DNA of 33,159 bases from a virus. The notes under the pieces were generated by a model. The model searched no databases and was not told the DNA's origin. It was given only the letters and a program-made list of their open reading frames with translations. Within the stretch, counting starts at the first letter, position 1. Each line of letters begins with the position of its first letter. Position numbers and translations under genes: made by a program. This document shows positions 475 through 33,159 of this stretch, piece by piece. Location: positions 1 to 33,159 of IMG/VR virus record IMGVR_UViG_3300034073_000866; one strand, 5' to 3'.

Positions 475-1032
475 TTAAGTTGTTATATCTCCAGCTAAAT
501 ACCATTCATTAGTATCTCTTTTTATCAATGTTGCCAACCCATATTGAGCAGCAATCTTTGTCTTGCCTCCAGATGATCTCAATGTAACTCCTCCAGCTGC
601 AGTCACAGTTGTTTGACCGGCACCATATTGAGCAATCAAGATCTGAGTTCCTATTGGAAACGGCACAACAAGATTGGTTGGTATTGTCAATGTGTTGGCT
701 CCAGCTAAGTTCATCTCAACAAGTCTTGATGCATCTGTTGGATCCAAAACATAATTCGTTGTCTGAGTGTTAAATTTAACCTCTGTCACAACAGTGCCAG
801 TTCCATTTGGTCTGATTACAACATCACCATTTGAGGCACTTGTTATTGTGTTGCCATTTACATCAAGATTACCTCCAAGCTGTGGAGATGTGTCAAGACT
901 CAGCTCATTAATCTCTGATCCAGTTACTTTCCTTGACACATAAGATGGTCCACTCACTTGAGCTATCTCAATCAAATCTGTGCTTGCAATCTTGCTTGCC
1001 TTCGCTGTTAAGTCTGATATTTTAACTCCCAT
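475..1032 (-). CDS. Tail-fibre-like structural protein
   Basis: A 185-residue protein. The N-terminal region (about 1-45) is a short linker-type domain. It is followed by a motif common in phage fibres near residues 45-62 (SPQLGGNLDVNGNTI) and by GDVVIRPNGTGTV at about 69-81. The rest is beta-rich and ends in a compact domain (about 110-185) with repeated short strands. LGGNLDxNGxxI and xIxPNGTG motifs are typical of fibre and baseplate-attached host-recognition proteins, where they form beta-helical or stacked-strand repeats. Its place between the large baseplate protein and the adhesin fits a receptor-binding or fibre-connector role. It starts 3 bp after the upstream stop. Confidence 0.7.
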   Translation of the reverse strand: MGVKISDLTAKASKIASTDLIEIAQVSGPSYVSRKVTGSEINELSLDTSPQLGGNLDVNGNTITSASNGDVVIRPNGTGTVVTEVKFNTQTTNYVLDPTDASRLVEMNLAGANTLTIPTNLVVPFPIGTQILIAQYGAGQTTVTAAGGVTLRSSGGKTKIAAQYGLATLIKRDTNEWYLAGDITT

Positions 1033-3417: not shown

Positions 3418-4598
3418 TAGTTCAGTTGAGATCTATATGTGAATGTTCTATCTATGTTGACAGTCTCTTGAATCAGACCATCTCTTCTGCGTTGCTTCAA
3501 TGTGTAGTTTGAATTCGTTACCTTAACTGGCTCAAACTCAGTTCCATTCTCTCTCTCAAGATATACCAATGGACTATCATATAAAGATTTCACAAGCCAT
3601 TGTTGAATGTCCTGGTTGATCCAATCAGAGTTCAATGTCAAAGTCTCAGTCTTAGTTTTGGCAAAGTTAATTGCTTGACCAGCATACAATGGATATGTGT
3701 AGCTTGTGCCATCCCATACTCCAGGATCTCTCTGATATCCATAGCTTTGAACATTTGCAGCTTCGGTTGAAACAAGACTGAATGTGAATGAATCAAATGA
3801 TCCAAACTTATTCAACCAATGCAGTCTATATGTATCATATCTCTTGCATTCAGTATCCATGTAAATCTTGAATGTCTCTGTTTTAATTGTCCTTGGAATA
3901 TCCCTTAAAAATATCTCATAGTAATAACATGTGTCAAAATCATTCTGAGTAACCGTTGTGTTGGCAATAATAACTTGAGGTCCAACATTAACAATGTTAT
4001 ATTCATCTGTTCCAACAGAATATGAATCACTAACAATTGTTGATCCACTAATATCTTTTAATACAACAATCATCTCAAGTGATGTGCCTTGGCTGTTATA
4101 ATATCCAAGATAGAAATTCTCATCATTACCACAAAGAGCTCTCTTTGATCTTGGAAAATATGTTAAGAACAAAGCATCATTAGTAAAGTTAAGGTCATAA
4201 TCTTGATAATCAAAAGCAATCCATTCTGGATATTCAAGAGCTGCATTGAAAGCACTTATGCCAGAGCTGTTTGTTGATGACGCTGTAATTACAGCTGCTG
4301 GAGTTCCATATTTCTCATATACTGTAATTGATACTGTTGGCATTACAACTGGAGTCTCAATATCTGTTGAGATTGGTGGATTGCTCAACACACTCTGCAC
4401 AGCCTCAGATACATCTATACGGCCAAGAGTATTGAATTGCCTGAATACCTCTTGAGTCAATCTCAATTGTCCATCAATATAAACCTCAACAATAAAACTG
4501 AAATTTGGTTGAGCTGTCTGATCACTGCTAAATGTGAACACCAATGGATTGCCAGCTGATGCAATTAGTTGCGGCTCATCATATATGGTTATTGCCAT
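3417..4598 (-). CDS. Tail/baseplate protein, distal-tail-like
   Basis: A 393-residue beta-rich protein with no membrane segment or signal peptide. Aromatic and acidic residues are abundant, with a Cys pair in the middle (CGNDENF near 158 and DTCYYYE near 225). The C-terminal third has a well-formed stretch, YAGQAINFAKTKTETLTLN, followed by WINQDIQQWLVKSLYDSP and an Arg-rich TLKQRRRDG near the end. Its place between the neck-like gene (4589-5113) and the large hub gene fits a distal-tail or baseplate adaptor. I know similar unnamed proteins from phages of Bacteroidota but cannot name a domain, so the functional part is inference from order and composition. Confidence 0.65.
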   Translation of the reverse strand: MAITIYDEPQLIASAGNPLVFTFSSDQTAQPNFSFIVEVYIDGQLRLTQEVFRQFNTLGRIDVSEAVQSVLSNPPISTDIETPVVMPTVSITVYEKYGTPAAVITASSTNSSGISAFNAALEYPEWIAFDYQDYDLNFTNDALFLTYFPRSKRALCGNDENFYLGYYNSQGTSLEMIVVLKDISGSTIVSDSYSVGTDEYNIVNVGPQVIIANTTVTQNDFDTCYYYEIFLRDIPRTIKTETFKIYMDTECKRYDTYRLHWLNKFGSFDSFTFSLVSTEAANVQSYGYQRDPGVWDGTSYTYPLYAGQAINFAKTKTETLTLNSDWINQDIQQWLVKSLYDSPLVYLERENGTEFEPVKVTNSNYTLKQRRRDGLIQETVNIDRTFTYRSQLN

Positions 4599-5113
4599 GT
4601 TTCTGTATTTTTATCAAATTTAATTTCAAACATCAATCCAGTAATCTCTGCCAAATCATTTGCTATCTTATTCAACACCTCATCAGTGATGACATTGTCA
4701 GTGATTCTCTTTGGCTTCAATCCTCGTTGCTTGATGTTGGATGCAACAGCATATGCATGTGACATCTCAAGTCCTTTCCATTGACTGATCGCTGTTGCCA
4801 TGTTATGAGATACACCAGGATAGTTGAATGAGAATTGACTACCATAGTTGTTGGTCCCAACAGCATTCACACCTTGATCCACAAATGGATAGTAATCATC
4901 AGCCTCTAATCTGAATGACAGCTGTCCAGTTGGAACTGGGATGATGGATGCTGCCAATCCTCCAGTATTGTTGGCAACTTTCTTTGTGTAATCTCTAAAC
5001 TCTGTTGCAAGCTGATTTGATATCTCAATTAAGAATCTATCATATACGCTTGCCGGTTGCTCAGCATCATTGGCTGATATCCCAAAGTCATCAAGAAAAT
5101 CAAGATCTGCCAT
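4589..5113 (-). CDS. Tail-completion/neck-type protein (HK97 gp10-like?)
   Basis: A 174-residue soluble protein. An N-terminal acidic segment leads into a helix (residues 24-47), then the motif LAASIIPVPTGQLSF and ADDYYPFVDQGVN at about 72-84. The pattern of a helix, a short beta unit and a tyrosine-rich YYPFVxxGV segment resembles HK97 gp10-type tail-completion proteins, which bind between the neck and the tail tube. The C-terminal part has helices with Lys-rich repeats (KQRGLKPKRI). It lies directly after the tail-assembly chaperone and overlaps the chaperone's -1 frame by 14 bp. The gp10 assignment is tentative, and a tail-tip role is the main alternative. Confidence 0.55.
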   Translation of the reverse strand: MADLDFLDDFGISANDAEQPASVYDRFLIEISNQLATEFRDYTKKVANNTGGLAASIIPVPTGQLSFRLEADDYYPFVDQGVNAVGTNNYGSQFSFNYPGVSHNMATAISQWKGLEMSHAYAVASNIKQRGLKPKRITDNVITDEVLNKIANDLAEITGLMFEIKFDKNTETWQ

Positions 5114-5890
5114 TACTTAATATGCGTTGATGTTCTTTTTCATCCACTATCTTAAAGTAGTTCATCCAGAATAAAGTCTTTACATAAGGTTGCTGCGTAA
5201 CTTTGTCCACACTGATTCCCATCTCTTTGGATAGTCTATGTAAGATAGTTGTCCAATTAAACCACTCCGAATCTTCTGGTCTTGAGCTATCTGCATCATC
5301 TCCATCTTCGCCCTCGCTGTCTGAATTCCTAAGATAGCCATCCTCCGCTTTTCTGATAAGTCCAAAAAAAAACTAAAGAAATTCAGAAACTCATCACCAG
5401 GGAAATGCTCCTTGAATAATTTATATCTATCCTCATTTGGATTCAATACTCTGCCTCTGTCATCCTCCTGACAATACTCCATCCCTTTCTCAACATACAT
5501 GATGGCAAGAGCTTGACATGGATCTTGGCTGATATCCTCAATCAGTTTTAAGTCAATGATCTGTCCAGTTGAAACGTGTCCAAAGTTTTTCTCAAATCTG
5601 AATTGCTTGCCTTCAATCTCAATGGTCTCATTTGGCTCCTGGTAATTATAAGATGTTAATATCTGGAGCATGTGAGCAGATGCAGCTTGAATGCTATTTA
5701 CATCAGCTCTCTTGATTCTGTTGATTGACTCTCCAGAAAATAGACTTAGCAACTGACATTGGAAGATTAGAAACTGAGTGATGTCATCCTTCTGGTCCTT
5801 CATTGCCTCTGCCATCATCAGCCACTTGGCCATCTGATCTGGAGTGCATTGACTTATTGATGTCGGTAGTTTTATCTCAAGTTCTTTCAT
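5100..5890 (-). CDS. Tail-assembly chaperone, -1 frameshift (long) product
   Basis: Tail-assembly chaperones of long-tailed phages are typically made in two forms by ribosomal slippage. Here the ribosome would read from the ATG at 5890, slip back one base on the T9 run at 5372-5364, and continue in an open -1 frame to a TGA at 5102-5100, giving about 263 residues. The -1 extension has 88 residues. It begins FGLIRKAEDGY, passes through a very acidic linker, and ends in a compact aromatic segment (KTLFWMNYFKIVDEKEHQ). That segment looks much more like evolved protein than a chance frame. The extension ends 14 bp inside the next gene, filling what would otherwise be an unexplained 66-bp gap. An assembly indel in the homopolymer is the alternative. 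Confidence 0.65.
5180..5890 (-). CDS. Tail-assembly chaperone, zero-frame (short) product
   Basis: A 236-residue mostly helical protein. I chose the ATG at 5890 because it overlaps the TerL stop as ATGA; an upstream ATG at 5944 would sit 58 bp inside TerL. The N-terminal half (to about residue 100) has helices with the segment CTPDQMAKWLMMAEAM. The middle contains GKQFRFEKNFGHVSTGQIIDLK, broken here as GKQFRFEKNF then GHVSTGQIIDL, and EDISQDPCQALAIMYV. It has no membrane segment. Placement after the terminase and before tail genes, with the slip site about four-fifths through, matches a G/GT chaperone pair. The last 61 residues after the slip site are open in this frame but look less constrained than the -1 reading. 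Confidence 0.7.
   Translation of the reverse strand: MKELEIKLPTSISQCTPDQMAKWLMMAEAMKDQKDDITQFLIFQCQLLSLFSGESINRIKRADVNSIQAASAHMLQILTSYNYQEPNETIEIEGKQFRFEKNFGHVSTGQIIDLKLIEDISQDPCQALAIMYVEKGMEYCQEDDRGRVLNPNEDRYKLFKEHFPGDEFLNFFSFFLDLSEKRRMAILGIQTARAKMEMMQIAQDQKIRSGLIGQLSYIDYPKRWESVWTKLRSNLM
5364..5374 (-). promoter_or_regulatory. Slippery site for -1 ribosomal frameshift
   Basis: On the minus strand the zero frame reads AGT TTT TTT TTG, so the heptamer T TTT TTT is in the correct register for tandem P- and A-site slippage. The run is nine T (5372-5364). The -1 frame beyond it stays open for 88 codons. I did not find a clear stem-loop directly downstream by eye. Transcriptional slippage on T9 would give the same product. 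Confidence 0.6.
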
Positions 5891-7089
5891 ACTCTTAAAG
5901 CCATATACCTTCCTCTGTTGCTGTATTCCTTTCTGCAGTTCCAAGCCAATGCTGTTGAGATGACACCATCATCATGCAAGCCAGCTGGTGCAGAATAAGT
6001 CACGTTCCTGGTATTCGGATTGTAAATATAAGAAAAATTCTCAAGCTCATCAATCAACCATTGTTCATTCACAATTGAAATTGCTGATTGCTCAAATGCA
6101 ACAGCCAAATCCTCAATGATGATTGGCTTTGTTTTGGAGGTAGTGACAAATGGATGGATCATATTCTTACATCTGGTTGCGAGCATCTCAAAGAATACAT
6201 CACCTTGATTGTTTACCTCCACCAATGTGGTTGCATTGTATTGCTTGATCAGTGTTGCCACCTTCTCAATAATCTTGCTCCACTCATCATGCCGCCATCT
6301 GTGAGCAGCAAACATCTGTCCATCCTGGTTGATGATTGTGAGTACAGTGTAGTCATCAGCTCTGCCAATATCAAGACCAGCATACATCTTTGATGTCTTG
6401 GCTCCAGTACCAATGCAATCAGATACATTTCTGAATATACCACTGGCATTGTCAATGAACTCAGCCAAGTACTCTTGCCTGAACACATAATCTGGTAGGG
6501 ATCGCTTTCTCTCATCCAACTCCCTTGGATCAATCATAGGATTGTCATAGGATGTGAAATGAAAGTACGCATATCTCTCATCATAGTTTGGTTGCATGCA
6601 AAGCTTATGGAAATGATTCCTCCCTTTTGGAGTTGAGATGAATATGACCTTCTTTCCTTTGACCAAGACTGTTGCACTCAAGACCTCATCCCAAAGCTCT
6701 GGTCTGGTGAATGCCATCTCATCAACAACCATGTAATCAAACGTATTGCCTCGGATATTGTCTGGTCTCTCTCCAGAGAAAAATTCAATGGTTGAGCCAA
6801 AACCAGAGATCATCAAGTCTGATCTATTGAAAGTAAACAATCCACTCGCTGTGGTTGCCCTCTCCATTTCAGAGAATACTTTCTTGCCTTGCTTATATAC
6901 TGGAGTAACCCAAGCAATCTTACAGCCTTTGTCATTGATTGCCCACCAAAGTAATTGGTTTATTCCGAGCATTGTCTTGCCGAACTGCCTACCTATATTG
7001 AGAGCATAGTATTTCTCATGACCATGGTTGATGGCATCATGAATGGACCTCTGATTCTCATGAGGCTTGTAGCCTTTGATTGTACTCAT
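5887..7089 (-). CDS. terL: Terminase large subunit (TerL)
   Basis: A 400-residue packaging motor with both expected domains. ATPase: the Walker-A-type motif GRQFGKT at residues 33-39, the Walker B motif VVDE at 121-124, and the coupling motif STPKG at 152-156. Nuclease (RNase H fold): Asp240 in YAGLDIGRADDYT, Glu291 in LVEVNNQGD, and a final acidic pair in HDDGVISTALAW near 380. It cuts concatemeric DNA and pumps it into the prohead through the portal. The length is typical of compact TerL proteins. It overlaps TerS by 4 bp (7086-7089) and the chaperone gene by 4 bp (5887-5890), so all three are probably translationally coupled. Identification is firm. Confidence 0.95.
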   Translation of the reverse strand: MSTIKGYKPHENQRSIHDAINHGHEKYYALNIGRQFGKTMLGINQLLWWAINDKGCKIAWVTPVYKQGKKVFSEMERATTASGLFTFNRSDLMISGFGSTIEFFSGERPDNIRGNTFDYMVVDEMAFTRPELWDEVLSATVLVKGKKVIFISTPKGRNHFHKLCMQPNYDERYAYFHFTSYDNPMIDPRELDERKRSLPDYVFRQEYLAEFIDNASGIFRNVSDCIGTGAKTSKMYAGLDIGRADDYTVLTIINQDGQMFAAHRWRHDEWSKIIEKVATLIKQYNATTLVEVNNQGDVFFEMLATRCKNMIHPFVTTSKTKPIIIEDLAVAFEQSAISIVNEQWLIDELENFSYIYNPNTRNVTYSAPAGLHDDGVISTALAWNCRKEYSNRGRYMALRV

Positions 7090-7552: not shown

Positions 7553-8620
7553 TTATTTACAATATTTAACATAGAAAGTATATGGTACAACTTTAAGCTT
7601 TGCAAGGATCCAGATTAGATGCTTGTATTTTTTAAAGTCATATTTATCAAAGAATCCTCGATCTCTTTTGTGTAGATTAACCAATCTGAGCATTCTCTCA
7701 GCGGATGCTCCAAGTTTTGTGAAATCAAACTCTGATTTATTGCTAAGCTGTTGCTTTGCCTCTTCCTTTGATATCTTTCCAGATCTGACTTGAGCAGCGA
7801 GATAAACAATGCGTTTATCAATGCCGAACTTCTCTGGCAGAAGGAATGAGCCAACGAACTCAGTGTAAACATTCTCACAATGTTTGCCACCATAATCTTG
7901 CCAGTTGATTAGTCTCTTCATCTCAGCCTCCATTGATTCTCTATCAAATCCATAATGAAATGGTCTCACATTCTTGATACCTATCAAGGCATAGAATAAT
8001 TGGTCCTTGAAAGTGAATACAGGATAGTTATGGAGCTTGAGTCCAGTGTATTTGTTATAAACTGATTCAATGTATTTGGCATCCATATAAGTCCAACCTT
8101 TTGGAGTTGATCCTTCTGTTCTAAAATCATGACCATTGAGGATGTACTTGATATTGTACTTGAATGCAGTATCATACATCAGCTTTGTCATTGCAATATC
8201 ATTTGGAATATCAGCATCTGGAATACCAGCCCAAAGGAAAGCATCATTGAGTCTGTCGTATTCAGCTTTGTTGACATTGTATGTGATACAATCAACTCCG
8301 AGCTTTTCAACCAGAGCTCTCATGTTGTGCATTGCCTCTGGAGCATTCCAATTGTTGTCAAAGTGAATCACCAATGGTTTTAGATCCCAGTATCTCACTG
8401 CAGTGAATAACAGTGTTGAGGAGTCAATACCTCCAGAGATTCCCATGATACAATCATATCTCTTATCTTGACCTTTGGATCTAATCTCTTTAATCAGATG
8501 CTTGAGTTCATGAGGATTGGCTTGCAGCTCCAGTTCATCATGGAGATCACAATACTCACATTGCTCTTGACCAATTGAGGCAATGGACTCATCAAATAAA
8601 CAGCGTGGACATTCTTTCAT
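7553..8620 (-). CDS. N-acetyl-sugar amidotransferase-like PP-loop enzyme
   Basis: A 355-residue ATP-pyrophosphatase-fold protein. The N-terminus carries four cysteines in two CxxC pairs (CPRC at 4-7, CEYC at 21-24), a probable zinc ribbon. The PP-loop SGGIDS at 62-67 follows, inside a Rossmann-like domain with HFDNNWNAPEA and LNGHDFRTEG. This architecture and length match the WbpG/PseA-type family, which adenylates a UDP-N-acetyl sugar and aminates it to an acetamidino group with ammonia from HisH/HisF-like partners. Those partners are absent from this window, so ammonia would have to come from the host or the substrate differs. I chose the ATG at 8620 because the first in-frame start (8629) is a TTG. 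It follows two glycosyltransferase genes, which supports surface- or virion-glycan modification. Confidence 0.8.
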   Translation of the reverse strand: MKECPRCLFDESIASIGQEQCEYCDLHDELELQANPHELKHLIKEIRSKGQDKRYDCIMGISGGIDSSTLLFTAVRYWDLKPLVIHFDNNWNAPEAMHNMRALVEKLGVDCITYNVNKAEYDRLNDAFLWAGIPDADIPNDIAMTKLMYDTAFKYNIKYILNGHDFRTEGSTPKGWTYMDAKYIESVYNKYTGLKLHNYPVFTFKDQLFYALIGIKNVRPFHYGFDRESMEAEMKRLINWQDYGGKHCENVYTEFVGSFLLPEKFGIDKRIVYLAAQVRSGKISKEEAKQQLSNKSEFDFTKLGASAERMLRLVNLHKRDRGFFDKYDFKKYKHLIWILAKLKVVPYTFYVKYCK

Positions 8621-9332
8621 AATTAACAAATGTATGATAAATTTTTGATATAAAAGTATTATCTAAGTGACGGCATTGATATTCTTTCATTATGTTTTGA
8701 CAGATATCATTGACTGATTGCCAAGGAATTGATGCTGGCAGATCACCGTTGTAAATGGATCGCCTTCCCATGAGTCCCATCTCAATGTTTGTGTTTGGAC
8801 ATCCATCATGAGGAGTTAATCTAAGATTGATGAAACATTGAGAGTAAACATCAACCAGCTGATCTCTTGAGAATGTATCATGACCAGCTCTTATAATTGG
8901 AATGTCAATACGTTCTTTGATTTCATTGATTAGATCTTGACCATAGTATTCTGGAGAATTCCCTGAATACCAGAATATTTTGTTGCCATTCGGCACTTGT
9001 TGCCATCTATCTGGAATGACAGCATTGAATGGATAGTATATTGCATCCACTCCTTTTGACTCTAATGTGTCAAGCACTTGATGACTCACTGCTATGTTAA
9101 CAAATTTATTCACCATCTCAATCCAATCTTCTGCAAGGTCTTTTGCATCTGATCCAAACCAAACAATTGTGCCATCTCCAATGTGACCAGATAGAAGAGC
9201 AAAATCTTCCTCTCTATACATTCCCATGAATATTGTTGGCATTATTGGAGAGATATATTCTGTGAGTTGATACTTCTCAATGAGACCTTGATCGAGACCA
9301 GCCAAAGATTCTGATATGTGGGATTGATTCAT
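8592..9332 (-). CDS. Glycosyltransferase, GT-B type (GT4-like)
   Basis: A 246-residue protein that looks like a short GT-B glycosyltransferase. The middle has strand/loop pairs typical of a Rossmann-like donor domain (GNKIFWYSGNSPEYYGQDL; then RIDIPIIRAGHD). The C-terminal part contains LTPHDGCPNTNIEMGLMG, which corresponds to the donor-nucleotide motif (acidic residue, small residues, then E followed by a helix) of GT4-like enzymes. The acceptor-side N-terminal domain is shorter than in bacterial enzymes (normally about 350-400 residues in all), so this may be a minimal phage version. It overlaps the upstream small gene by 4 bp and the amidotransferase by 29 bp. Donor and acceptor cannot be read from the sequence. 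Confidence 0.65.
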   Translation of the reverse strand: MNQSHISESLAGLDQGLIEKYQLTEYISPIMPTIFMGMYREEDFALLSGHIGDGTIVWFGSDAKDLAEDWIEMVNKFVNIAVSHQVLDTLESKGVDAIYYPFNAVIPDRWQQVPNGNKIFWYSGNSPEYYGQDLINEIKERIDIPIIRAGHDTFSRDQLVDVYSQCFINLRLTPHDGCPNTNIEMGLMGRRSIYNGDLPASIPWQSVNDICQNIMKEYQCRHLDNTFISKIYHTFVNYERMSTLFI

Positions 9333-9565
9333 AGTTTCTCAATCTCTTGTCTGACATCCAATAGCCATTGATGTGCTAAGCTACCTTCATTGATATATAA
9401 ACCATTTCTAATATCAAGCATCTCATCAACACATATCAATGCACATCTTTTAGCTATTTCAAGATTCATGTAAAAAACATATACTCCACTTGCATCATCC
9501 TCTGATGGTTTATATTCAATATACATTTTACTGACAAGATCTTTTGCTTTCTCTTCTGCACTCAT
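9329..9565 (-). CDS. Small conserved phage protein (78 aa), unknown function
   Basis: A 78-residue helical protein. The pattern KAKDLVSKMY at the start, CALICVDEML in the middle and VRQEIEKL at the end is one I recognise from many unnamed small proteins of Bacteroidota phages and prophages, usually among accessory genes. No catalytic motif, membrane segment or zinc site is visible. It is placed between two glycosyltransferase genes with 4-bp overlaps at both ends, so it is certainly translated in the same operon, but this says little about its role. Confidence 0.75.
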   Translation of the reverse strand: MSAEEKAKDLVSKMYIEYKPSEDDASGVYVFYMNLEIAKRCALICVDEMLDIRNGLYINEGSLAHQWLLDVRQEIEKL

Positions 9566-10260
9566 AATAAAGTTTTTAATTCGTTAAATCCATTCTCAAG
9601 TAATGCCACATCACATCTCTCTGACTTGAGAGCTCCAGTCCAATGATCTGTGAATTTGTGCTTGTTAATCCATTTGTTTGTTGAGATTGACAACAGCTTG
9701 ATCTGTTTATCATCCGGAAGGATTCCAATCTCTTGTTTTGCTCTGATTGTTTTGAGCCACATGGACCAGTCAAGACCAGCATTGAGTCTTGGATCAAATG
9801 GTCTCCATGCTATGCTATCAAGGAAATCAGCTCTGAGCACTCTACCAATTCCAATTGGCTCATGATGTCTCTGTCCTGGACCATATCCTTTCCAATGCAC
9901 AAGTCTTATCGTATTGCTGACATCAGCGAAATGACAGCCTAACATTCCAAGCATTCCAAAGTCTTGAATGTGTAACTTGATTGAATCAATATAGTCATCA
10001 CTGCACCAGTCAGATGATCCCATGAACATCACTGCATCAGCCTTATAATTCTTTGAGGCAGCGAAGCCAGCATTCCATTTATTGCCAAGCGGATCATTAT
10101 CAATGTGAATGAATTCAACATTCAATTGTTTTGCAATATCCTCTGCCTCTTTCTCATGGCCCATCATAATTGGAATGACTCCTTGAGACTTAAGCCTTGA
10201 GACTGTTAATCTCACAAGAGGAAATCTGCCCATAACTGGTATTGGTGCTGTGATTATCAT
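9562..10260 (-). CDS. Glycosyltransferase, GT-A type (GT2-like)
   Basis: A 232-residue GT-A-like protein. The N-terminus (MIITAPIPVMGRFPLVRLTV) is the first strand and helix of a nucleotide-sugar-binding fold. GNKWNAGFAASK at about 59-70 is the family's base-contacting helix, and VMFMGSSDWCSDDYID near 77-92 contains acidic residues in the position of the DxD metal-binding motif (here SSDWCSDD). The later segment FDPRLNAGLDWSMWLK resembles the ED-motif region with the catalytic acid. Probable role: transfer of a sugar from a nucleotide donor onto a phage or host surface molecule. ATGA overlaps join it to the genes on either side. The exact GT family cannot be settled by eye. Confidence 0.7.
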   Translation of the reverse strand: MIITAPIPVMGRFPLVRLTVSRLKSQGVIPIMMGHEKEAEDIAKQLNVEFIHIDNDPLGNKWNAGFAASKNYKADAVMFMGSSDWCSDDYIDSIKLHIQDFGMLGMLGCHFADVSNTIRLVHWKGYGPGQRHHEPIGIGRVLRADFLDSIAWRPFDPRLNAGLDWSMWLKTIRAKQEIGILPDDKQIKLLSISTNKWINKHKFTDHWTGALKSERCDVALLENGFNELKTLL

Positions 10261-13486: not shown

Positions 13487-13954
13487 TTACAAATGTAATG
13501 TAAATTTTTCATACCACAATACAAAATCATCAAAAGTTTTTGCAATGATATAAGTACCTCCAGCTTTCTCAATAGCTTCTTGATAAGCTTTCTGATGATC
13601 TGATTGCCTATCCTTTCCATACTTCACCTCAATCTTGACTGATCTGCCTCTTATGGTTGCTGAGATGTCAGCTGTTCCTTTTGTCCCTTGTCCTGGGGTC
13701 CATTTGCCTGGTAGCTGTTTGAAAGAGTCCATCATTGGAATCTTTTTTCCAGCTCTGTATTGACCTTGATTTGATATCCTTTCAGCTTGACCGCCAAGAG
13801 CATTGATCCAGAAGATAATGCACTTAGTCAATCCATTGGCTGAGGTATCCTTCCAATCAGTCAGAGGAATGAGTTCTGGTCTCATTGATGGATATTTTGA
13901 TCTTAACTGCTCCATCTCAAGAGATTTGAGTTTGTCCTTGTTAGCTTTGTTCAT
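13487..13954 (-). CDS. VRR-NUC-type nuclease (PD-(D/E)XK)
   Basis: A 155-residue protein. The segment GTKGTADISATIRGRSVKIE followed by VKYGKDRQSDHQKAYQEA contains the D-x15-E-x-K catalytic core and the Q/H helix of VRR-NUC nucleases, which in phages act on branched or single-strand-end DNA. I used the ATG at 13954; the longer start at 13978 is a TTG inside the preceding gene's 25-bp junction repeat. It forms a replication/recombination set with the ERF protein and exonuclease. The N-terminal 55 residues carry a short basic helix of unknown use. Confidence 0.75.
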   Translation of the reverse strand: MNKANKDKLKSLEMEQLRSKYPSMRPELIPLTDWKDTSANGLTKCIIFWINALGGQAERISNQGQYRAGKKIPMMDSFKQLPGKWTPGQGTKGTADISATIRGRSVKIEVKYGKDRQSDHQKAYQEAIEKAGGTYIIAKTFDDFVLWYEKFTLHL

Positions 13955-13976
13955 TCTATTCTGATTTAAAGGTTTC
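13952..13976 (-). repeat. Junction repeat, copy 1 of 3 (25 bp)
   Basis: On the minus strand it begins GAAACCTTTAAATCAGAATA and runs into the next ATG. It encodes the shared C-terminal residues ETFKSE, the stop, and the following start codon. Identical to the copy at 14169-14193. Confidence 0.85.
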
Positions 13977-14171
13977 AAAATTTGTTAAATGCTTTTCAAG
14001 GTAAAACTCACAATTCCAATCTTTGTGCTTGTTATCGTTCCAACCTGCTCGGTAATCATTTTTTCGTTGATCTAATTCCATTTCTTTGGCTTGTTCAATT
14101 AGGCTTTCAGTATCGTTAATAAATTCGCCTTTCATTAATTTATCAACCAACCATTCTACTGCTGTTTTCAT
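13956..14171 (-). CDS. MKTAVEWL-family small protein, copy A (71 aa)
   Basis: A 71-residue charged helical protein. It shares its first eight residues (MKTAVEWL) and the core QAKEME with the neighbouring gene at 14306-14539, and ends in the same ETFKSE. Between these the sequences diverge. I recognise the family (N-terminal helix, QAKEME-type motif, C-terminal YxxETF-type end) from marine and freshwater Bacteroidota phages, where it is repeatedly found as neighbouring copies; its function is not known. The stop is part of the 25-bp junction repeat, and the next gene's ATG is at 13954. It is probably a soluble protein. Confidence 0.8.
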   Translation of the reverse strand: MKTAVEWLVDKLMKGEFINDTESLIEQAKEMELDQRKNDYRAGWNDNKHKDWNCEFYLEKHLTNFETFKSE

Positions 14172-14193
14172 TCTATTCTGATTTAAAGGTTTC
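14169..14193 (-). repeat. Junction repeat, copy 2 of 3 (25 bp)
   Basis: Second copy, spanning the end of the 43-aa membrane gene and the ATG of the 71-aa gene. Its 3' side continues into a second shared stretch (14149-14171) that encodes MKTAVEW. Confidence 0.85.
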
Positions 14194-14304
14194 TTTTTCT
14201 TTTTTTTTAAATAATTGGTAATACCAATAGTGAATTGCTATACAAAATCCTGAAAAACTAATTGCTCCATAAACAATACAAAATTCAATATCTTCACTTC
14301 TCAT
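14173..14304 (-). CDS. Single-span membrane microprotein (43 aa)
   Basis: A 43-codon gene with ATG at 14304 and TAG at 14175-14173, in a gap of 134 bp between two related genes. Residues 7-28 (EFCIVYGAISFSGFCIAI and on) form one membrane span; a basic end (KKKEKETFKSE) follows. The last six residues are identical to those of both neighbours because the junction repeat encodes them. Either it inherited a shared 3' end by recombination or the end has a common function. No family was recognised. Confidence 0.6.
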   Translation of the reverse strand: MRSEDIEFCIVYGAISFSGFCIAIHYWYYQLFKKKEKETFKSE

Positions 14305-14326
14305 TTTATTCTGATTTAAAGGTTTC
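14302..14326 (-). repeat. Junction repeat, copy 3 of 3 (25 bp)
   Basis: Third copy, differing from the others at one position (14306, T instead of C), which changes the stop context from TAG to TAA. It ends the 77-aa gene and includes the ATG of the 43-aa membrane gene. Confidence 0.85.
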
Positions 14327-14539
14327 GTTGTAGTATTGTTTACATCTTTCTTCTGTTAATGGTATATCTTGTCCACCCTCCCAATAAGCATTTTCAATCT
14401 GCTCTTTCTCCATTTCTTTGGCTTGTTTATGAGCGTCATATGTTTGAATCGACCAAAGAGTCTCGTCAATTATACCTACTTCATAATCATGATTAATTTT
14501 ATTAATTGTATCTATTAACCATTCTACTGCTGTTTTCAT
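14306..14539 (-). CDS. MKTAVEWL-family small protein, copy B (77 aa)
   Basis: A 77-residue relative of the gene at 13956-14171. The shared parts are MKTAVEWL at the start, QAKEMEKEQIENAYWEG in the centre and ETFKSE at the end, while the region between residues 11 and 37 is unrelated. The ending CKQYYNETFKSE is the form I know for this family. The pattern of conserved ends with variable middles suggests repeated recombination or duplication. No catalytic or membrane motif is present. Confidence 0.8.
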   Translation of the reverse strand: MKTAVEWLIDTINKINHDYEVGIIDETLWSIQTYDAHKQAKEMEKEQIENAYWEGGQDIPLTEERCKQYYNETFKSE

Positions 14540-17803: not shown

Positions 17804-17991
17804 TTTGTTAAATAATATTTGTTAAATTTATCTTTGTTGACTTGATATCCTAATTGCTTGAACAAATTAAAATATCTGTAAACTGTTCTTTCAGATACGT
17901 TCAAATATCTTTTAATTATTGGCATAGGTCTTGGCTTTAATTTCAGTAATTGAAGCAATCTGATGCATCTATAAAGTTTCATTTGATTCAT
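17800..17991 (-). CDS. Small HTH protein (63 aa)
   Basis: A 63-residue basic protein. IIKRYLNVSERTVYRYFNLF at residues 25-44 is a helix-turn-helix of the winged DeoR/HTH_11 type, with a probable wing after LGYQVNKDKF. A regulator of the early genes or an accessory to replication are both possible. It joins its neighbours by ATGA overlaps on both sides. Confidence 0.75.
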   Translation of the reverse strand: MNQMKLYRCIRLLQLLKLKPRPMPIIKRYLNVSERTVYRYFNLFKQLGYQVNKDKFNKYYLTK

Positions 17992-18395
17992 AACTCCTCA
18001 ACTTTATATCCCCAAATAATGTATTGTTGTAATGTATCAAGCTCTTTTGGATTTTCATAGTGATATCCTTCTTGTCTGAGATAGCCTCTTGCATCTTTAA
18101 AGCAATGCCACCAGAAGCCACCTTCTGTCTCAACTGAATCCTCAATCCATACTCTGAATCTTTTTAATGGGACCATTGTCCACTTAGATCCGTTTGAATT
18201 TAAACCATTGTAGTTTTTAAGATATGTCTCAATATCCTTTGTTAAAACTTCTTTGGTTATAATTTGCTTAGTCACTGGATGCTCAATTTGCATCAGTATT
18301 GGAATTCTCTTTGTTGGCTTTTTATGCTCAATATATCGCATGAATTCTATTGATTTTAAATTCATAGCATTGTCCTGGTTTATTTCTATTTTCAT
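17988..18395 (-). CDS. Unknown early protein (135 aa)
   Basis: A 135-residue mixed alpha/beta protein without signal peptide or membrane span. Recognisable stretches are RFRVWIEDSVETEGGFWWHC and GYLRQEGYHYENPKELDTL, with many aromatic residues near the end (YIIWGYKVEEL). No family was recognised. Its first Lys-rich segment (EHKKPTKRIPIL) might contact nucleic acid or a protein partner. It sits in an operon of replication and regulatory genes, with ATGA overlaps. Confidence 0.7.
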   Translation of the reverse strand: MKIEINQDNAMNLKSIEFMRYIEHKKPTKRIPILMQIEHPVTKQIITKEVLTKDIETYLKNYNGLNSNGSKWTMVPLKRFRVWIEDSVETEGGFWWHCFKDARGYLRQEGYHYENPKELDTLQQYIIWGYKVEEL

Positions 18396-18589
18396 TTTAA
18401 ATCAGTTAAATCGTTAAAAAATAAACTTATATGTCTACCATTACTCATGTGTTCAACAACAACATCAATAAAATTTTTAAGATTATCATAATCTTCAAAT
18501 GATAATTGCTTGACTGTCTGAGTTGTGAATGTTTGTTCAAAATAATGAACTCCAGTTCTTTGGTCAAAATGTTCTTCTTGTATTTTCAT
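18392..18589 (-). CDS. Unknown early protein (65 aa)
   Basis: A 65-residue soluble protein with strands at the N-terminus (GVHYFEQTFTTQTVKQLSF) and a helix after EDYDNLKNFIDVVVEHM. It probably forms a small alpha/beta domain. It shares ATGA overlaps with both the 47-aa gene upstream and the 135-aa gene downstream, so translation is likely coupled. Confidence 0.65.
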   Translation of the reverse strand: MKIQEEHFDQRTGVHYFEQTFTTQTVKQLSFEDYDNLKNFIDVVVEHMSNGRHISLFFNDLTDLK

Positions 18590-21827: not shown

Positions 21828-21879
21828 CCTTATTGAGATATGCTTTTAATTTATCAATCTGTTTCTTAGAAAATTTCAT
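21742..21879 (-). CDS. Possible 45-aa basic protein overlapping the tail-terminator gene
   Basis: A 45-codon frame whose ATG (21879) overlaps the connector stop as ATGA and fills the 48-bp gap between the connector and tail-terminator genes. The first 20 residues (MKFSKKQIDKLKAYLNKDGK) form a basic helix; the rest overlaps the terminator gene by 86 bp and is low in structure. Its start placement is the main support. Confidence 0.35.
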   Translation of the reverse strand: MKFSKKQIDKLKAYLNKDGKNIKPADERAGNNSNRAQTDKRILSR

Positions 21880-22388
21880 TGTATCCAGTTCAATGGTTTA
21901 TATCCAGTATCATCTTTCTTGACATATTCATTGCAATGATCTGAGCACATATCACAATACTCTGGATATTTTGTTGCTTGATCATCTTTAAGATATCCAA
22001 TCAATCTCTCTTTGTAAAAATATGCATCCTTTCTCAACTGATCTCTGAGCTCAGCAACTTGATTCAATTCAAGAGTTGTTTGATTATCATCTTGCACTCT
22101 TCCAGCACCTTTATTTGTTAGCTTATCAGTCAACAAAAGAGCTGCTCTGTAATCAACGAATGCAACCAAACAAGGTACAACATAATCATTCATAAGATCC
22201 AAGTAATCTTGAGTCCATGTGTTTGTCTCAACTCTATCAAGCAATGCTCTGAATAATGGAGTCCCAAGAGCTGGCTGAATATGCATGTCTTGAGATCTCT
22301 TTATGGCCACAGCCAAGAGCTTAGTATCTGTATTATTGTGAATGATACCAAGCTTTTTTAAATTTTCAACCGATAATAAATAGTTCAT
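21876..22388 (-). CDS. Head-tail connector/adaptor protein
   Basis: A 170-residue helical protein. The opening MNYLLSVENLKKLG, then NTDTKLLAVAIKRSQDMHIQ and LGTPLFRALLDRV, matches the helical adaptor pattern found directly after portals in many phages (DUF6712-like family as I recall it). It fixes the portal ring to the neck. Two CxxxC pairs near the end (EYCDMCSDHCNEYV) are notable and may bind a metal. The gene starts 3 bp after the portal stop. Confidence 0.7.
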   Translation of the reverse strand: MNYLLSVENLKKLGIIHNNTDTKLLAVAIKRSQDMHIQPALGTPLFRALLDRVETNTWTQDYLDLMNDYVVPCLVAFVDYRAALLLTDKLTNKGAGRVQDDNQTTLELNQVAELRDQLRKDAYFYKERLIGYLKDDQATKYPEYCDMCSDHCNEYVKKDDTGYKPLNWIQ

Positions 22389-22391
22389 AGT

Positions 22392-24353
22392 TTATCTTTT
22401 TACAACTAATTGCTGAATCCATTCATGTCTACACCATGGTGTTGAGGCACCAGTATCTGGATTTGTATACCATCCACCTCTGTATCTCCAAACATCTCTG
22501 TCAACTCTTGATGATATTGTGTTGATTTCATCTCTTGAATATAGTCTATTCAATGACATAAGTCTCTCACAGAATTGTCTTGATCCACTCTTTGCTGGAG
22601 GCACATCTAATCTGGTCCGATATCCATAACGTACTTCAAATCTTTCAATTGGAATCTGCTCCTCACTAACTAATTGCTTTCCCAAATCAGTTACCTCTCC
22701 TTTCACCAGGATATCCCACTTCATTAATCTTGCCATTGACTTGGCAATCTCTTCGATATTTGTGTTTAATGCTTTGGCAATACCATTAGAATCTTCACCA
22801 TCACCAATCAACTTCAATACATTTTTATCAAAGTCATTCAGCTCAGCTGATATCTCAGCAATGGTTGCAAATAGTTCCTCTTGCTTTGAGAATACATCAG
22901 CGGATGGAGTATCCCATTCAATTGGAAATGTTGCATATACTTTATAATCATCAGCTGATTCACCGTATTCAGCAAAGTATCCAATCTCATCATCTTGATG
23001 ATCGAACTTGCATGATGACATTTGCTGAGCTCCTGGTTGCAATCCAACAATCCTTCTGGCTTGTGCCTCATCAATGGTTGGAAATGATGCCAATACAATG
23101 CTCAATGCACTCTCAGATGTCAACAGTCCTTCTTTAATCTTAGCAACTACATCAATAAGTGATGCAATCTGAGCTCCATTCAATGCTGATTTTGCCACAT
23201 CAACTTGAGTTTCATTTGCTGGAATATCACCAACTGGAGCTGCAACTGTTGGCTCTTGAGTTGTTCCTATTGGAGTCACATCTTTAAGCTTAATAACACC
23301 AGTCTCTCCAGATAATTTAACCATGTAATTCAATATCCACTCAATTCTTTTTTGTCTTGTCTCAACATAAGTCTTTTTAAAGATCTCAAATAGCTCTGCA
23401 CTCTCAGCTGCATTGAATGATCCCTCTGGAGCAACACCAAATAATGATGGAGCAACCACAGAATGAGCAACAAGAATGTTCTGTTGCACACTATCCTCAA
23501 GCATATCATATCTCTTATCAAGATCATTACCAGTTAAGTTGTCAACCTTTGGAGCTTGATCTGCAGATGGTGCAAATGTGATGATAATATCTCCAGAATT
23601 CTCAATTGCAGATGCTGGATTCTTGATTTGATTCTTGAATGACTCTGCCTCCTCTTGAGTTTCTGGAAAGCCATCCATAAATGTGATCATTGTACCGGAC
23701 TTGAATCCATTCTGTAGTTCATACATGTGGAATTTACTGATATCACAATCAGTCTGAATTGATGTGATACCTCCCTGATATGGTGGCTTTGGATATACTC
23801 CATGTTCTTTGCGACCTTTCTTTGCTGGATCTTTATAATACAATACAAATGATCCAACTTTGTTTTGCTCATCAAGAGCTGGCAATACTCTGAGATTGGT
23901 TTTCTCAGCTGATTGCTGTTGCACTGTCCAATCATCAGAAAGATAATACATTCTTTCATCAGAGGATATTCTGATCATGTCGATTGGTAGGTATTCCCAT
24001 ACAGCAACCCTGGTCCCTTCTCTATTCCAAGTACCTTTGACCGCGAATGCACCAAACAACTCATAATCAAATGCCAATTGCTCAACAATCTCATTCATAT
24101 TGAAATCAGAATAAGGATTGGCAATGAATCTTGCAAGCTCTCCAGATACAACCTCAAGACCTCCACCAGCAATGTAATGCGTTTTGTTCTTTATGATACC
24201 TTGGTGCCAAGCTGATCCATTGTAAAGATCAACTAAAAAATATGGATAGTCATTCTTTTTTCCCCATTTAATAAAGCCAAGCATTCTATCTTGCTCCTCA
24301 ATTGGAAGGACAAAATCCTTTCTGAATGACATTGATTCAAGTTTCTTATTCAT
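22392..24353 (-). CDS. Portal protein with C-terminal extension
   Basis: A 653-residue protein. Residues 1 to about 390 resemble phage portals: the opening LPIEEQDRMLGFIKWGKKND, then IIKNKTHYIAGGGLEVVSGE, EYLPIDMIRIS, and a stem-like SVVAPSLFGVAPEGSF near 310. The C-terminal 260 residues add a charged helical region and a winged-helix-like part (GEDSNGIAKALNTNIEEIAK). The end is Trp/Arg-rich (RDVWRYRGGWYTNPDTGAST, then CRHEW), similar to ends of minor head proteins. The portal docks TerL during packaging. The 653-residue length, longer than simple portals (about 450-520), points to fusion with a minor head module. It overlaps the preceding gene by 8 bp. Confidence 0.8.
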   Translation of the reverse strand: MNKKLESMSFRKDFVLPIEEQDRMLGFIKWGKKNDYPYFLVDLYNGSAWHQGIIKNKTHYIAGGGLEVVSGELARFIANPYSDFNMNEIVEQLAFDYELFGAFAVKGTWNREGTRVAVWEYLPIDMIRISSDERMYYLSDDWTVQQQSAEKTNLRVLPALDEQNKVGSFVLYYKDPAKKGRKEHGVYPKPPYQGGITSIQTDCDISKFHMYELQNGFKSGTMITFMDGFPETQEEAESFKNQIKNPASAIENSGDIIITFAPSADQAPKVDNLTGNDLDKRYDMLEDSVQQNILVAHSVVAPSLFGVAPEGSFNAAESAELFEIFKKTYVETRQKRIEWILNYMVKLSGETGVIKLKDVTPIGTTQEPTVAAPVGDIPANETQVDVAKSALNGAQIASLIDVVAKIKEGLLTSESALSIVLASFPTIDEAQARRIVGLQPGAQQMSSCKFDHQDDEIGYFAEYGESADDYKVYATFPIEWDTPSADVFSKQEELFATIAEISAELNDFDKNVLKLIGDGEDSNGIAKALNTNIEEIAKSMARLMKWDILVKGEVTDLGKQLVSEEQIPIERFEVRYGYRTRLDVPPAKSGSRQFCERLMSLNRLYSRDEINTISSRVDRDVWRYRGGWYTNPDTGASTPWCRHEWIQQLVVKR

Positions 24354-24714
24354 AAATGTTAAATGTTATATTTGTTGAGAATTCTGTTGATGGTGAATCT
24401 TGCACATAAACATGAGCTCTGCCCTCCTCAACCAATCCATCTGATAAATCTGGATCTAAATTGACAGCTGATGTTTGCTGATATATTCTATACGTGTAAT
24501 ATCCATCATAATCAAAGGTTACATCCACACCATCAGTCAGTTCAAATTCATCATATCTGGTGATGGCATTGCTGAGATTTGGTAGAATGCAATAATATTT
24601 TAAGAAAGATTGTTCATGCTCAAACTCAAATAGGTAATGAACTGGACTCACTGTTGTCAGTTCTGTCACTGTCACTATCATTGTTGAGGTTGAGCTCTTC
24701 TCTAATCTTAGCAT
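24346..24714 (-). CDS. Small structural protein (122 aa), head-associated
   Basis: A 122-residue beta-rich protein. The run VTVTELTTVSPVHYLFEFEH, then RYDEFELTDG, YYTYRIYQQTSAVNLDPDLS and VEEGRAHVY, is a pattern I recognise from small structural proteins encoded near portals in Bacteroidota phages, probably an immunoglobulin-like fold. The ATG at 24714 fits the family's N-terminus; the ATG at 24681 is an alternative. It overlaps the 78-aa gene by 89 bp and the portal by 8 bp. Function inferred: head decoration or neck. Confidence 0.65.
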   Translation of the reverse strand: MLRLEKSSTSTMIVTVTELTTVSPVHYLFEFEHEQSFLKYYCILPNLSNAITRYDEFELTDGVDVTFDYDGYYTYRIYQQTSAVNLDPDLSDGLVEEGRAHVYVQDSPSTEFSTNITFNIYE

Positions 24715-27085: not shown

Positions 27086-27988
27086 TTATTGTTCGAAAAT
27101 ACCTAACTCTTTGAGCTTAGCCTCTGCCCATCTCTTTCCAGCAAGTCCACCCCATAATAAATATGAGATTGTTCCACATGCTGAATTGTCATCTGGATTA
27201 TAATACTCCTCTGCTCTTGACAGATATGAATACATTCTTTTGATGATAGCTACAGATACGGTTTGCTTGTTTGCCAAAGTCGTTGCTCTCAAGCGACCAA
27301 CTCTGGTTGCACATTTATTACCATACTTTTGGTTGAGCTCAATTCCTTTCTTGGCATTGTTGCTCACAGCTTCTGGATAGTCATTGTAAAATCTTATGTA
27401 TTCCTGTACTGATTTCAGCTCTTGATAAATGTAAGCGAATTCATGCTCCCATCCTTTGCCAGTCTCAAGCAATTGGAATACTCCCTCAATTGAGAAGCCA
27501 GTAAACATTCCAGCCTTGGCTGCCTCATATACATCCTTGTTGGTTACTTTGTAACTCACAATCCATGATCCATCATTCTCTTTGTTGAATCTTTCTGGAG
27601 CTGTGAATCCTTTTGCCTCATCAATGATGTAACTCATGATCATATAGATCCCATCAACCACTCTCTTGCTATCATGCTCAAGATTTACATTGTTGAAATT
27701 ATCTCTGCGAGCATAGTCAAATACAATATCCTTGATTGCTTGCTTTGAAAAGTTCACATAATACTCTTCATTAGTCTGAGGATCTCTTCGATATATGGGA
27801 GTATCTGCAGATATAGCGACTCCAGTGATGACTTGCTCCTCATCATTGAATTGATAAGCAATTTTTTTGCTGAATGTCTCAAATGATTTCTCATGTGCTG
27901 GATTGGCTACCAATGAATTGAATGATACTGTTGTTTCTGGATCTTCAAGATCAATCACAATATCATAAAGAGGTAATTCTCTAATCAT
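27086..27988 (-). CDS. Prohead protease, XkdF-like, with C-terminal helical module
   Basis: A 300-residue protein. I chose the ATG at 27988; the longer frame (28069) is unlikely because it would overlap the divergent gene. The N-terminal 170 residues fit the XkdF-type protease: VSFNSLVANPAHEKSF, then GVAISADTPIYRR, and FNNVNLEHDSKRVVDGIYMI with the conserved His. After about residue 190 a second module follows: YPEAVSNNAKKGIELNQKYG, then RVGRLRATTLANKQTVS, and ACGTISYLLWGG with AGKRWAEAKL. I recall this second module from Bacteroidota phage proteins. The protease clears scaffold and capsid tails during maturation; the C-terminal module's role is unknown. Confidence 0.8.
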   Translation of the reverse strand: MIRELPLYDIVIDLEDPETTVSFNSLVANPAHEKSFETFSKKIAYQFNDEEQVITGVAISADTPIYRRDPQTNEEYYVNFSKQAIKDIVFDYARRDNFNNVNLEHDSKRVVDGIYMIMSYIIDEAKGFTAPERFNKENDGSWIVSYKVTNKDVYEAAKAGMFTGFSIEGVFQLLETGKGWEHEFAYIYQELKSVQEYIRFYNDYPEAVSNNAKKGIELNQKYGNKCATRVGRLRATTLANKQTVSVAIIKRMYSYLSRAEEYYNPDDNSACGTISYLLWGGLAGKRWAEAKLKELGIFEQ

Positions 27989-28012
27989 AAATATTATGTA
28001 AATTTGTTCGAA

Positions 28013-28660
28013 ATGGTTTTTGTTTATCCGTACCACAGCAAGTCTGAGTCTGACTTTGAAATCAACCAATCAATAAGATGGTTGAGATTAATATATCCAG
28101 ATGCAGAGATATGGACCATTGGCAAATCTGTTGCTGGAGTTAATAATCTGCCATGCACTCAACACAATAATATCAGAGGATGTGATGTGACAAATAGGAT
28201 TCTGAATTTTGCCAGGAACATTGGAGGTGATTTCATCTATATGAACAAAGATTTTTTCATTACAAAGATATGGCAGCCACATGTTGCCATTAACATGGGA
28301 TCAATCATTGTCAATCCAGAACATCCTCCACATACTCAAATGGCTCAACAGAATACTTTGGAATTCTTGAAACATAACAGCTTTACAGCATACAATTATG
28401 AGACACATACTCCAGTTATTATGAACAGCAAAAAGCTGATTGATCTATTTGACAATATCAATTGGCAGAATGACAACCATTTCATCAAATCAATCTATTG
28501 TAATGTGTACAAAGTTCCATCAAAGGAAGGATTTAATTGCAAGGTATCTGTGCCATCCATTGACAAAGCAAAGGAATTCATTGCACTCCAGGGATGTTTC
28601 TCAACTGGTGATGGTTTCTGGAATCAATCCAGATCTAATTGGATTAAAATGTACTCTTAG
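28013..28660 (+). CDS. Stealth/glycosyltransferase-like protein on the opposite strand
   Basis: A 215-residue protein and the only convincing plus-strand gene. It opens with a Rossmann-like segment (MVFVYPYHSKSESDFEINQS, then RLIYPDAEIWTIGKSVAG). The motif NIGGDFIYMNKDFFITK at about 75-91 aligns with the conserved F-[IL]-Y-x-N-[DK]-D-[FVI]-F pattern of Stealth-type phosphotransferases and related phage sugar transferases. I prefer the ATG at 28013 to the TTG at 28004. It starts 24 bp from the oppositely directed protease gene and its last 17 bp overlap the end of the tape-measure gene, so it sits as a moron between two virion genes. Target glycan unknown. Confidence 0.6.
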   Translation: MVFVYPYHSKSESDFEINQSIRWLRLIYPDAEIWTIGKSVAGVNNLPCTQHNNIRGCDVTNRILNFARNIGGDFIYMNKDFFITKIWQPHVAINMGSIIVNPEHPPHTQMAQQNTLEFLKHNSFTAYNYETHTPVIMNSKKLIDLFDNINWQNDNHFIKSIYCNVYKVPSKEGFNCKVSVPSIDKAKEFIALQGCFSTGDGFWNQSRSNWIKMYS

Positions 28661-31544: not shown

Positions 31545-33116
31545 TTATACGTTTCTATTTAATGCTGTTTGGTATGTGTTTACACGGGTGTAAAAATTAT
31601 CACATTCAGTTTGAGTCAAACCATCTGATAAATATCCGAATGCTAATTGTCTGCTACCATTCTGGAAAGTATTATTACTTAAATCTGTTGACCTTGCACC
31701 AAATAGAAAATTTAAATCTGGCTTTGCAGTTGATGCAGCAGTTGATGTTGCGTGGGTTGTATTTCTAACTAATCTCACAGCATTTGATGCTGTTCTACTT
31801 ACTTGATAAAAACCACTTGAATCTGTAACTGCAAGTGATGTATTAGTTGTTGTATTAACCTGAGCATAAGAAACATTATCAGTCCATCTCTCAACAATAA
31901 AACAAGAATCTTGATTAGCTGCACCTGCACCATGACCAGTTGCACTACCTATACTATTTGTTCTTGAATATATACCAAATGCCATACTATTCAATGTCAT
32001 AACACTATTAACATTTATTCCAGTATTGGCATACGTTGTACCATTTGGAGTCATCCCCGTAGAACTATGAGTCCACCCCGTAGCAAATGTCAAATTGTAA
32101 GTTCCAGGAGTCTTAAGGTTGACTGCGTGACTACTCGCAGATCCACCAACTATTGGATAGATAGCATTCATCTTAGTCCATAAACTATCAGCCTTTAATC
32201 CTATTACTAAGTTGTTTATTGCTGTTGCTTGAACTTGGTCATCTATTGCAGCTGCAGTAACAAAAGCTTGTGCATCAGCGTCGCTAACTGTTTGTGTTCC
32301 CATTGAGCGTCCTAAAGTTGTTTGATATGCTTGAACAGCTGTGTAAAAATTAGCTGCATCCGTATCTGTTAATCCGTCACCTATTGAAGCAAAGGCGCAT
32401 TGTTTTGTTGTATAAGTTCCTGTGTCTGGTGCGCCTGATTGATTGTAAGTCCCTATGTAAATATTATTATTAATAGTGCCACTTGAAGCCGTTGAGCTTG
32501 TTACTACTTTTGTGCCATTTTTCCAGCCATTTAAAACATTTGACGCTGTTCTATTTGCAACATATAAACCTTGTGAATTAGCGTCTGAATAAGTAGCAAA
32601 ACCACCTGCATTAATAGTAAAATAACTTGTTCCTGCAGTTCTTATTTCAAGTAATGAATATACTCCTGATAATAAATGACCTATTTCAACTTCAGTTCCA
32701 TTACTATTAGTTCTTGAATAATAACTCAAATGCTCAGAATTTTGACTTAAACTTACAGCCCCATTTAAAAATGTATTTGCCCAAGCATTTGTGGGTAACA
32801 TTCCGTTAGCTGAATGTGTCCAACCAGTTGAAAATGTCAATCTAAACGCAGCATCTAAATCTCTTGGGTCTTTAAGATTGAATTTATGGCTACTCGCAGA
32901 ACCTCCTACTATTGGATAGATTGCTTTGAACTTAGTCCAAATTGAATAACCTTTTAAATCAAGTACTAATTGATTAATAGCACTTTGTTGAGTAGGGTCT
33001 GTTATTGAAGCCGCTGTGATGAATGCTTGTGCGTCGGGGTCTACTCCTCCACCTGATGCTGATCTGGCTAAGATGCCATGTGTTGCTAAAAACATACTAT
33101 TGCCGTAACCAATCAT
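31545..33116 (-). CDS. Large tail adhesin with two repeated LamG-like modules
   Basis: A 523-residue protein (ATG at 33116 overlaps the preceding stop as ATGA across the circle junction). It consists of two homologous units of about 240 residues. Each starts DAQAF[IV]TAA, continues with the conserved I[YW]PIVGGSASSH segment, N-L-K-x-P and F-[SA]-T-GWTHS, then a beta-rich middle, and ends with LTxT(D/E)xxNFYTxV-x-x-YQT. The second unit begins near residue 281. This fold order is typical of concanavalin/LamG-like carbohydrate-binding modules found in marine Bacteroidota phages. Duplication probably raises avidity or broadens receptor specificity. The small start domain (IGYGNSMFLATHGILARS) may attach the protein to the tail. 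Confidence 0.75.
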   Translation of the reverse strand: MIGYGNSMFLATHGILARSASGGGVDPDAQAFITAASITDPTQQSAINQLVLDLKGYSIWTKFKAIYPIVGGSASSHKFNLKDPRDLDAAFRLTFSTGWTHSANGMLPTNAWANTFLNGAVSLSQNSEHLSYYSRTNSNGTEVEIGHLLSGVYSLLEIRTAGTSYFTINAGGFATYSDANSQGLYVANRTASNVLNGWKNGTKVVTSSTASSGTINNNIYIGTYNQSGAPDTGTYTTKQCAFASIGDGLTDTDAANFYTAVQAYQTTLGRSMGTQTVSDADAQAFVTAAAIDDQVQATAINNLVIGLKADSLWTKMNAIYPIVGGSASSHAVNLKTPGTYNLTFATGWTHSSTGMTPNGTTYANTGINVNSVMTLNSMAFGIYSRTNSIGSATGHGAGAANQDSCFIVERWTDNVSYAQVNTTTNTSLAVTDSSGFYQVSRTASNAVRLVRNTTHATSTAASTAKPDLNFLFGARSTDLSNNTFQNGSRQLAFGYLSDGLTQTECDNFYTRVNTYQTALNRNV

Positions 33117-33159
33117 AATACCAAACAAACAGATCCAGATGTCAATGTGACACCACTAA
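32918..33159. repeat. Terminal overlap, right copy (circular closure)
   Basis: Matches 1-242 except at 33045 (T versus A at 128). It contains the first part of the adhesin gene and the end of the gene that is complete at 196-462. Confidence 0.9.

Follow-up and report, generated by a model that had tools for sequence, protein, structure and literature searches.

A gene beside terL with a conserved T9 run and a conserved −1 frame domain, a likely two-product tail assembly chaperone gene of uncultured phages

The 33,159 nt viral sequence analysed here (IMG/VR record IMGVR_UViG_3300034073_000866, positions 1 to 33,159, hereafter the window) carries on its minus strand, directly after the terminase large subunit gene terL, a gene which we call X and in which two reading frames appear to be in use. 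Its zero-frame open reading frame (5180..5890, minus strand) is conserved in all homologues and encodes a G-like product of 236 aa, consisting of an N-domain (residues 1 to ~175) and a tail that continues for 61 codons past a run of nine T (T9, 5364..5372, minus strand). The run is read in the zero frame as AG[T TTT TTT]TTG and holds two overlapping heptamers, T_TTT_TTT (5372..5366) and T_TTT_TTG (5369..5363). From here the −1 frame provides a T-like extension of 88 codons plus stop (5100..5366, minus strand), likewise conserved in all homologues, the stop itself (5102..5100) lying 14 nt within the next gene and 80 nt beyond the zero-frame stop; the fusion of N-domain and −1 extension is 263 aa long. 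Both frames are open over ~190 nt (5180..5363, minus strand), up to the zero-frame end at 5180, and the −1 frame is unique only over its last ~80 nt. The slip register and the 88 open codons ending 14 nt into the neighbouring gene were correctly described in an earlier reading of the same letters (the original prediction), which proposed a programmed −1 frameshift in a tail assembly chaperone. T9 is the sole run of at least eight T on the coding strand of the window, but as a first-order model gives ~0.5 runs of at least nine T on that strand by chance, the run taken by itself is weak evidence.

Homologues were drawn from IMG/VR contigs and one contig of a bacterial metagenome-assembled genome; a search of 388 genomes around this last match revealed no further copies of X. 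Counts of loci include contigs that were retrieved more than once, while the distinct set comprises 169 gene sequences and 151 fusion proteins, the latter with identities to the window sequence down to 46%. Exactly nine T in the same codon phase were found by script at 335 of the 337 homologous loci; inspection by eye showed T9 at the other two as well, of which one lies at a contig end and one has an upstream indel. The heptamer T_TTT_TTT stands in the zero-frame register in all homologues, with G or C as the base 5' of the run and G, A or C as the base 3' of it. In every homologue the −1 frame is open and reaches the same domain, such that a variable acidic linker is followed by a conserved helical domain, whose core (5103..5273, minus strand) reads DSEWFxWTxILxRLxKExGxxVDxITxQPYVKTLFWMNYxKLxxEQxY in the alignments. 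The zero-frame stop shifts among homologues to give between 216 and 261 codons, a few of the longest perhaps reflecting the choice of an upstream start. In 168 of the 169 distinct sequences the stretch from T9 to the conserved EWxxW core contains no ATG, GTG or TTG, and independent initiation of the −1 domain is therefore unavailable.

Constraint on the two frames was estimated for 67 distinct sequences of the window clade by parsimony on a tree, and the resulting omega values rest on approximate counts. Omega is 0.17 for the zero frame in the N-region of X. Within the overlap, constraint is stronger on the zero frame over the first half (~30 codons; 0.33 vs 1.38 in the −1 frame) and on the −1 frame over the last half (~30 codons; 0.25 vs 0.68 in the zero frame), while past the zero-frame stop the values are about 0.13 in the −1 frame and 2.19 in the zero frame. 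Codon-position variability of the −1 frame past the zero-frame stop is concordant, at 0.245 for the third position compared to 0.066 and 0.032 for the others. These estimates indicate that the −1 frame past the zero-frame stop is under strong purifying selection, and that constraint passes from the zero frame to the −1 frame in the manner a G/GT arrangement predicts. The conserved C-terminal domain is found in the −1 frame and not in the zero frame, although the zero-frame tail is partly constrained as well.

The AlphaFold2 model of the zero-frame product has a mean predicted local distance difference test score (pLDDT) of 77, with about 85 in the N-domain and about 45–70 in the tail. In the model of the −1 domain, helices are predicted at residues 36–51 and 62–88 with pLDDT about 80, model confidence being modest. 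A Foldseek search with the zero-frame model returned 34 viral models at E<1e-3, including a protein of Nonlabens phage P12024S, and a search with the −1 domain model alone returned no match at E<1e-3.

The cultured phage P12024L (NC_018272), a sister of P12024S whose host is Nonlabens (also Persicivirga), has the corresponding gene as a pair, gp40–gp41, at 23946..24640, gp40 beginning where terL ends. Its T9 (24388..24396) is read CTT TTT TTT TAT, and the −1 frame encodes a W-rich (W-x-W) domain (...FSLKWGWYHTFNVIAASNGYFGLEKVEREPLGSILYWLAYQSDLGKV) which is annotated only as its last 55 aa, gp41. On this evidence the two hypothetical proteins annotated as gp40 and gp41 appear to come from a single frameshifted gene, and PHROGs divides the pair between phrog_32199 and phrog_38404, both of unknown function, in agreement with the earlier suggestion that this family is normally annotated as a short frame. 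Among 63 relatives of gp40 (25–100% identity) the run is T9 in 62 and T10 in one, and the same −1 domain is present except at a few contig ends. The sole T10 relative (L402, near 2900-3000) reads TTT TTT TTT TAT and keeps the −1 domain, and is a natural run-length variant. Profile-profile comparison matches the N-domains of X and the P12024L branch at E 7.5e-11, while the C-domains are co-linear and match weakly (E 5e-4, probability 31%). The codon phase of the run is 1+3+3+2 in the window branch compared to 2+3+3+1 in the P12024 branch.

Searches of cultured phages by tblastn, with X and diverged homologues of either part, gave no match. In Flavobacterium phage 6H, a frame transition at gp10 (NC_021867, 10048..10927, minus strand) was not counted as support because a T6 run near the end of gp10 meets a −1 stop at once. 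The 304-nt unannotated gap that follows this gene has an open −1 frame and a plausible C-domain, and gp10 is probably the Foldseek match R9VW65, the two having been matched by length only. In Olleya phage Harreka_1 terL is followed by the portal gene, and no X-like gene is annotated there.

In the window, terL (5887..7089, minus strand; Pfam Terminase_6N 2.5e-18, phrog_2 2.4e-43) shares 4 nt with the start of X, and X is followed by a 174-aa gene (4589..5113, minus strand, ATG at 5113) which is gp10/tail-completion-like by eye only and which has no match in Pfam or PHROGs. The end of terL lies within 150 nt upstream of X at all 328 testable loci, and the 174-aa gene starts no more than 250 nt from the −1 stop at all 315 testable loci; gene X is therefore placed between terL and tail-region genes. 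Further along, a tail-fibre-like gene (475..1032) has phrog tail and fibre matches. An 883-aa protein (28644..31295, minus strand) is tape-measure-like in its length, coiled-coil and hydrophobic segments, judged by eye, and is without a family match in Pfam or PHROGs.

As a frame transition, the predicted programmed −1 event is supported by the invariant T9, the conserved open −1 domain and the selection seen past the zero-frame stop, and from these sequences we regard such a transition in X as close to certain. Since the run is invariant, selection continues past the zero-frame stop and internal starts are lacking, an assembly error, chance or a separate gene are all very unlikely. Homopolymers are error-prone, and the true run might have been T10 or the zero frame alone real; yet T9 is present in every independent assembly, many of which contribute to the 169 distinct gene sequences, and both frames are constrained within the overlap, leaving this explanation hardly credible. 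It is very improbable, if somewhat less so, that the −1 domain belongs to a gene of its own, with a separate start or coupled translation, as the annotation of gp41 as a 55-aa open reading frame in P12024L would have it, given the invariance of T9 and the lack of a start codon before the core. A different question is whether the transition is real and the protein has another role than that of a tail chaperone, such as a factor for packaging or for the neck, next to TerL. X adjoins terL at every locus, no homologue among the named chaperones was found and the tape-measure-like gene is several genes off, all of which would suit such a role. However, the downstream genes look tail-related (the phrog tail and fibre matches at 475-1032), there is no other −1 candidate by the tape-measure-like gene, and to our knowledge nearly every two-product gene of this size with a 3' frameshift in a tailed phage encodes a G/GT chaperone, which makes a non-chaperone protein unlikely.

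In our view X is therefore likely to be a tail assembly gene of the two-product G/GT type, belonging to a siphovirus-like phage. The proposed chaperone function draws on its architecture and neighbourhood, both of which agree with the original prediction, and on the lambda G/GT precedent; no named homologue was found. In G/GT systems the tape measure protein is bound by the short form and the major tail protein by the long form, and neither form is present in the virion. Most expression of X would give the short zero-frame protein, whereas in a minority of events a one-base slip back on T9 would give the fusion, exchanging the zero-frame tail for the acidic linker and small helical C-domain. 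By analogy to lambda gpG/gpGT, many short copies may coat the tape measure protein, the likely client being the product of 28644..31295, and a few long copies may use the C-domain to bring in the major tail protein. Several observations weigh against this assignment. The zero-frame stretch past the slip, at 61 codons, is longer than that of lambda. Annotated chaperones appeared in the Foldseek results only at E 0.33 and 0.64, a fold search of the PDB with the zero-frame model was empty, and Pfam and PHROGs gave no convincing match and no named tail-chaperone family for either frame. X follows terL, with the tape-measure-like gene several genes further in circular order, while the usual place of the chaperone is directly upstream of the tape measure gene, a position that is typical and not strictly defining. 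In addition, no stimulatory RNA structure was detected downstream of the slip site (mean z −0.3 to −0.5, 19 representatives). We do not claim formal membership of the G/GT family, as X is without similarity to an experimentally studied chaperone, and propose that it represents a new, widespread and unannotated family of a known kind, which works like a G/GT chaperone gene. Frameshifting to −1 in G/GT genes is widely conserved among long-tailed phages (PMC5009743).

The same two products would also arise if RNA polymerase slipped on T9 and added a U, such that ribosomes shift to the −1 frame. Transcriptional slippage in bacteria uses runs of nine A or T (PMC5009743), or Tn with n>8 (PMC3711429). 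The run is kept at nine in the window branch, and at nine or ten in the P12024 branch, despite the differing codon phase. The lack of RNA structure noted above points the same way, and by eye there is no Shine-Dalgarno-like stretch in the 25 nt upstream of the slip; a stimulator of either sort, downstream structure or upstream Shine-Dalgarno-like element, is common in ribosomal −1 frameshifting but not obligatory. However, T_TTT_TTT is a proper ribosomal heptamer whose register is correct in both of these branches, and in that of the window it is overlapped by T_TTT_TTG/A, so that a ribosomal model can use all nine T. Moreover, dual coding constrains the T positions on both flanks, and two branches represent few independent events. 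It is not possible to decide from sequence alone at which level the slip occurs, because dual coding also constrains the flanking bases. We lean slightly towards slippage by the ribosome ahead of slippage in transcription, while regarding the latter as a serious contender. In the literature searched we found no report of transcriptional slippage setting tail-chaperone ratios; if it does so here, this would be a new way of setting them, with slippage by RNA polymerase on T9 maintained in two branches of Bacteroidota phages that have diverged from each other.

With its terminal bases 1-242 recurring exactly at 32918-33159, the window represents a complete phage genome of ~32.9 kb, and the host is probably a member of the Bacteroidota. 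Almost all of the long genes are encoded on the minus strand. Apart from those described above, the genes include a prohead protease (27086..28069, Peptidase_S78_2), the portal (22392..24353, phrog portal match) and a DUF6712 gene (21876..22388). A second candidate site of the XXXYYYZ form, TTTAAAA at 18401 (minus strand), lies towards the end of a gene of 65 aa (18392..18589); we set it aside as probably chance or coupling, because its −1 frame merely enters the next overlapping gene (17988..18395). Upstream of terL, the genes at 7553..10260 (minus strand) appear sugar-related by eye, that at 7553..8629 resembling an N-acetyl sugar amidotransferase and its neighbours glycosyltransferases. A 48-nt repeat is present in three copies (13948..13995, 14165..14212 and 14298..14345), which are 71–100% identical with a common part of about CATTCTATTCTGATTTAAAGGTTTC; the copies surround the starts of small genes and are possible promoter or operator repeats.

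If our reading of X is correct, a large group of uncultured phages from freshwater and marine environments gains a candidate tail chaperone, together with its frameshift product, in place of what have so far been separate unknown fragments in the databases. The family also suggests a sequence rule for annotation pipelines, namely a gene after terL with T9 and a W-rich −1 domain, and P12024L is a cultured phage in which the family can be tested.

The slip site of lambda is GGGAAAG, compared to T9 in X, which also differs from the lambda gene in lying directly after terL and not before the tape measure gene, in its long zero-frame tail, and in having no sequence match to named G/GT chaperones. 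Like X, lambda gpG/gpGT and other G/GT proteins (PMC5009743) combine an N-domain with a small C-domain from a single gene of a long-tailed phage. Thermus dnaX and Shigella mxiE (PMC5009743, PMC3711429) resemble X in having nine identical A or T inside a coding frame while a different frame yields a functional product, although these are cellular genes and X also has a ribosomal heptamer. P12024L and P12024S differ from X in sequence (~12% identity), in the codon phase of the run and in the length of the zero-frame tail, and their annotation records no frameshift, the halves being listed as unrelated hypothetical proteins; they nevertheless share with X the order TerL, N-domain, T9 and W-rich −1 domain.
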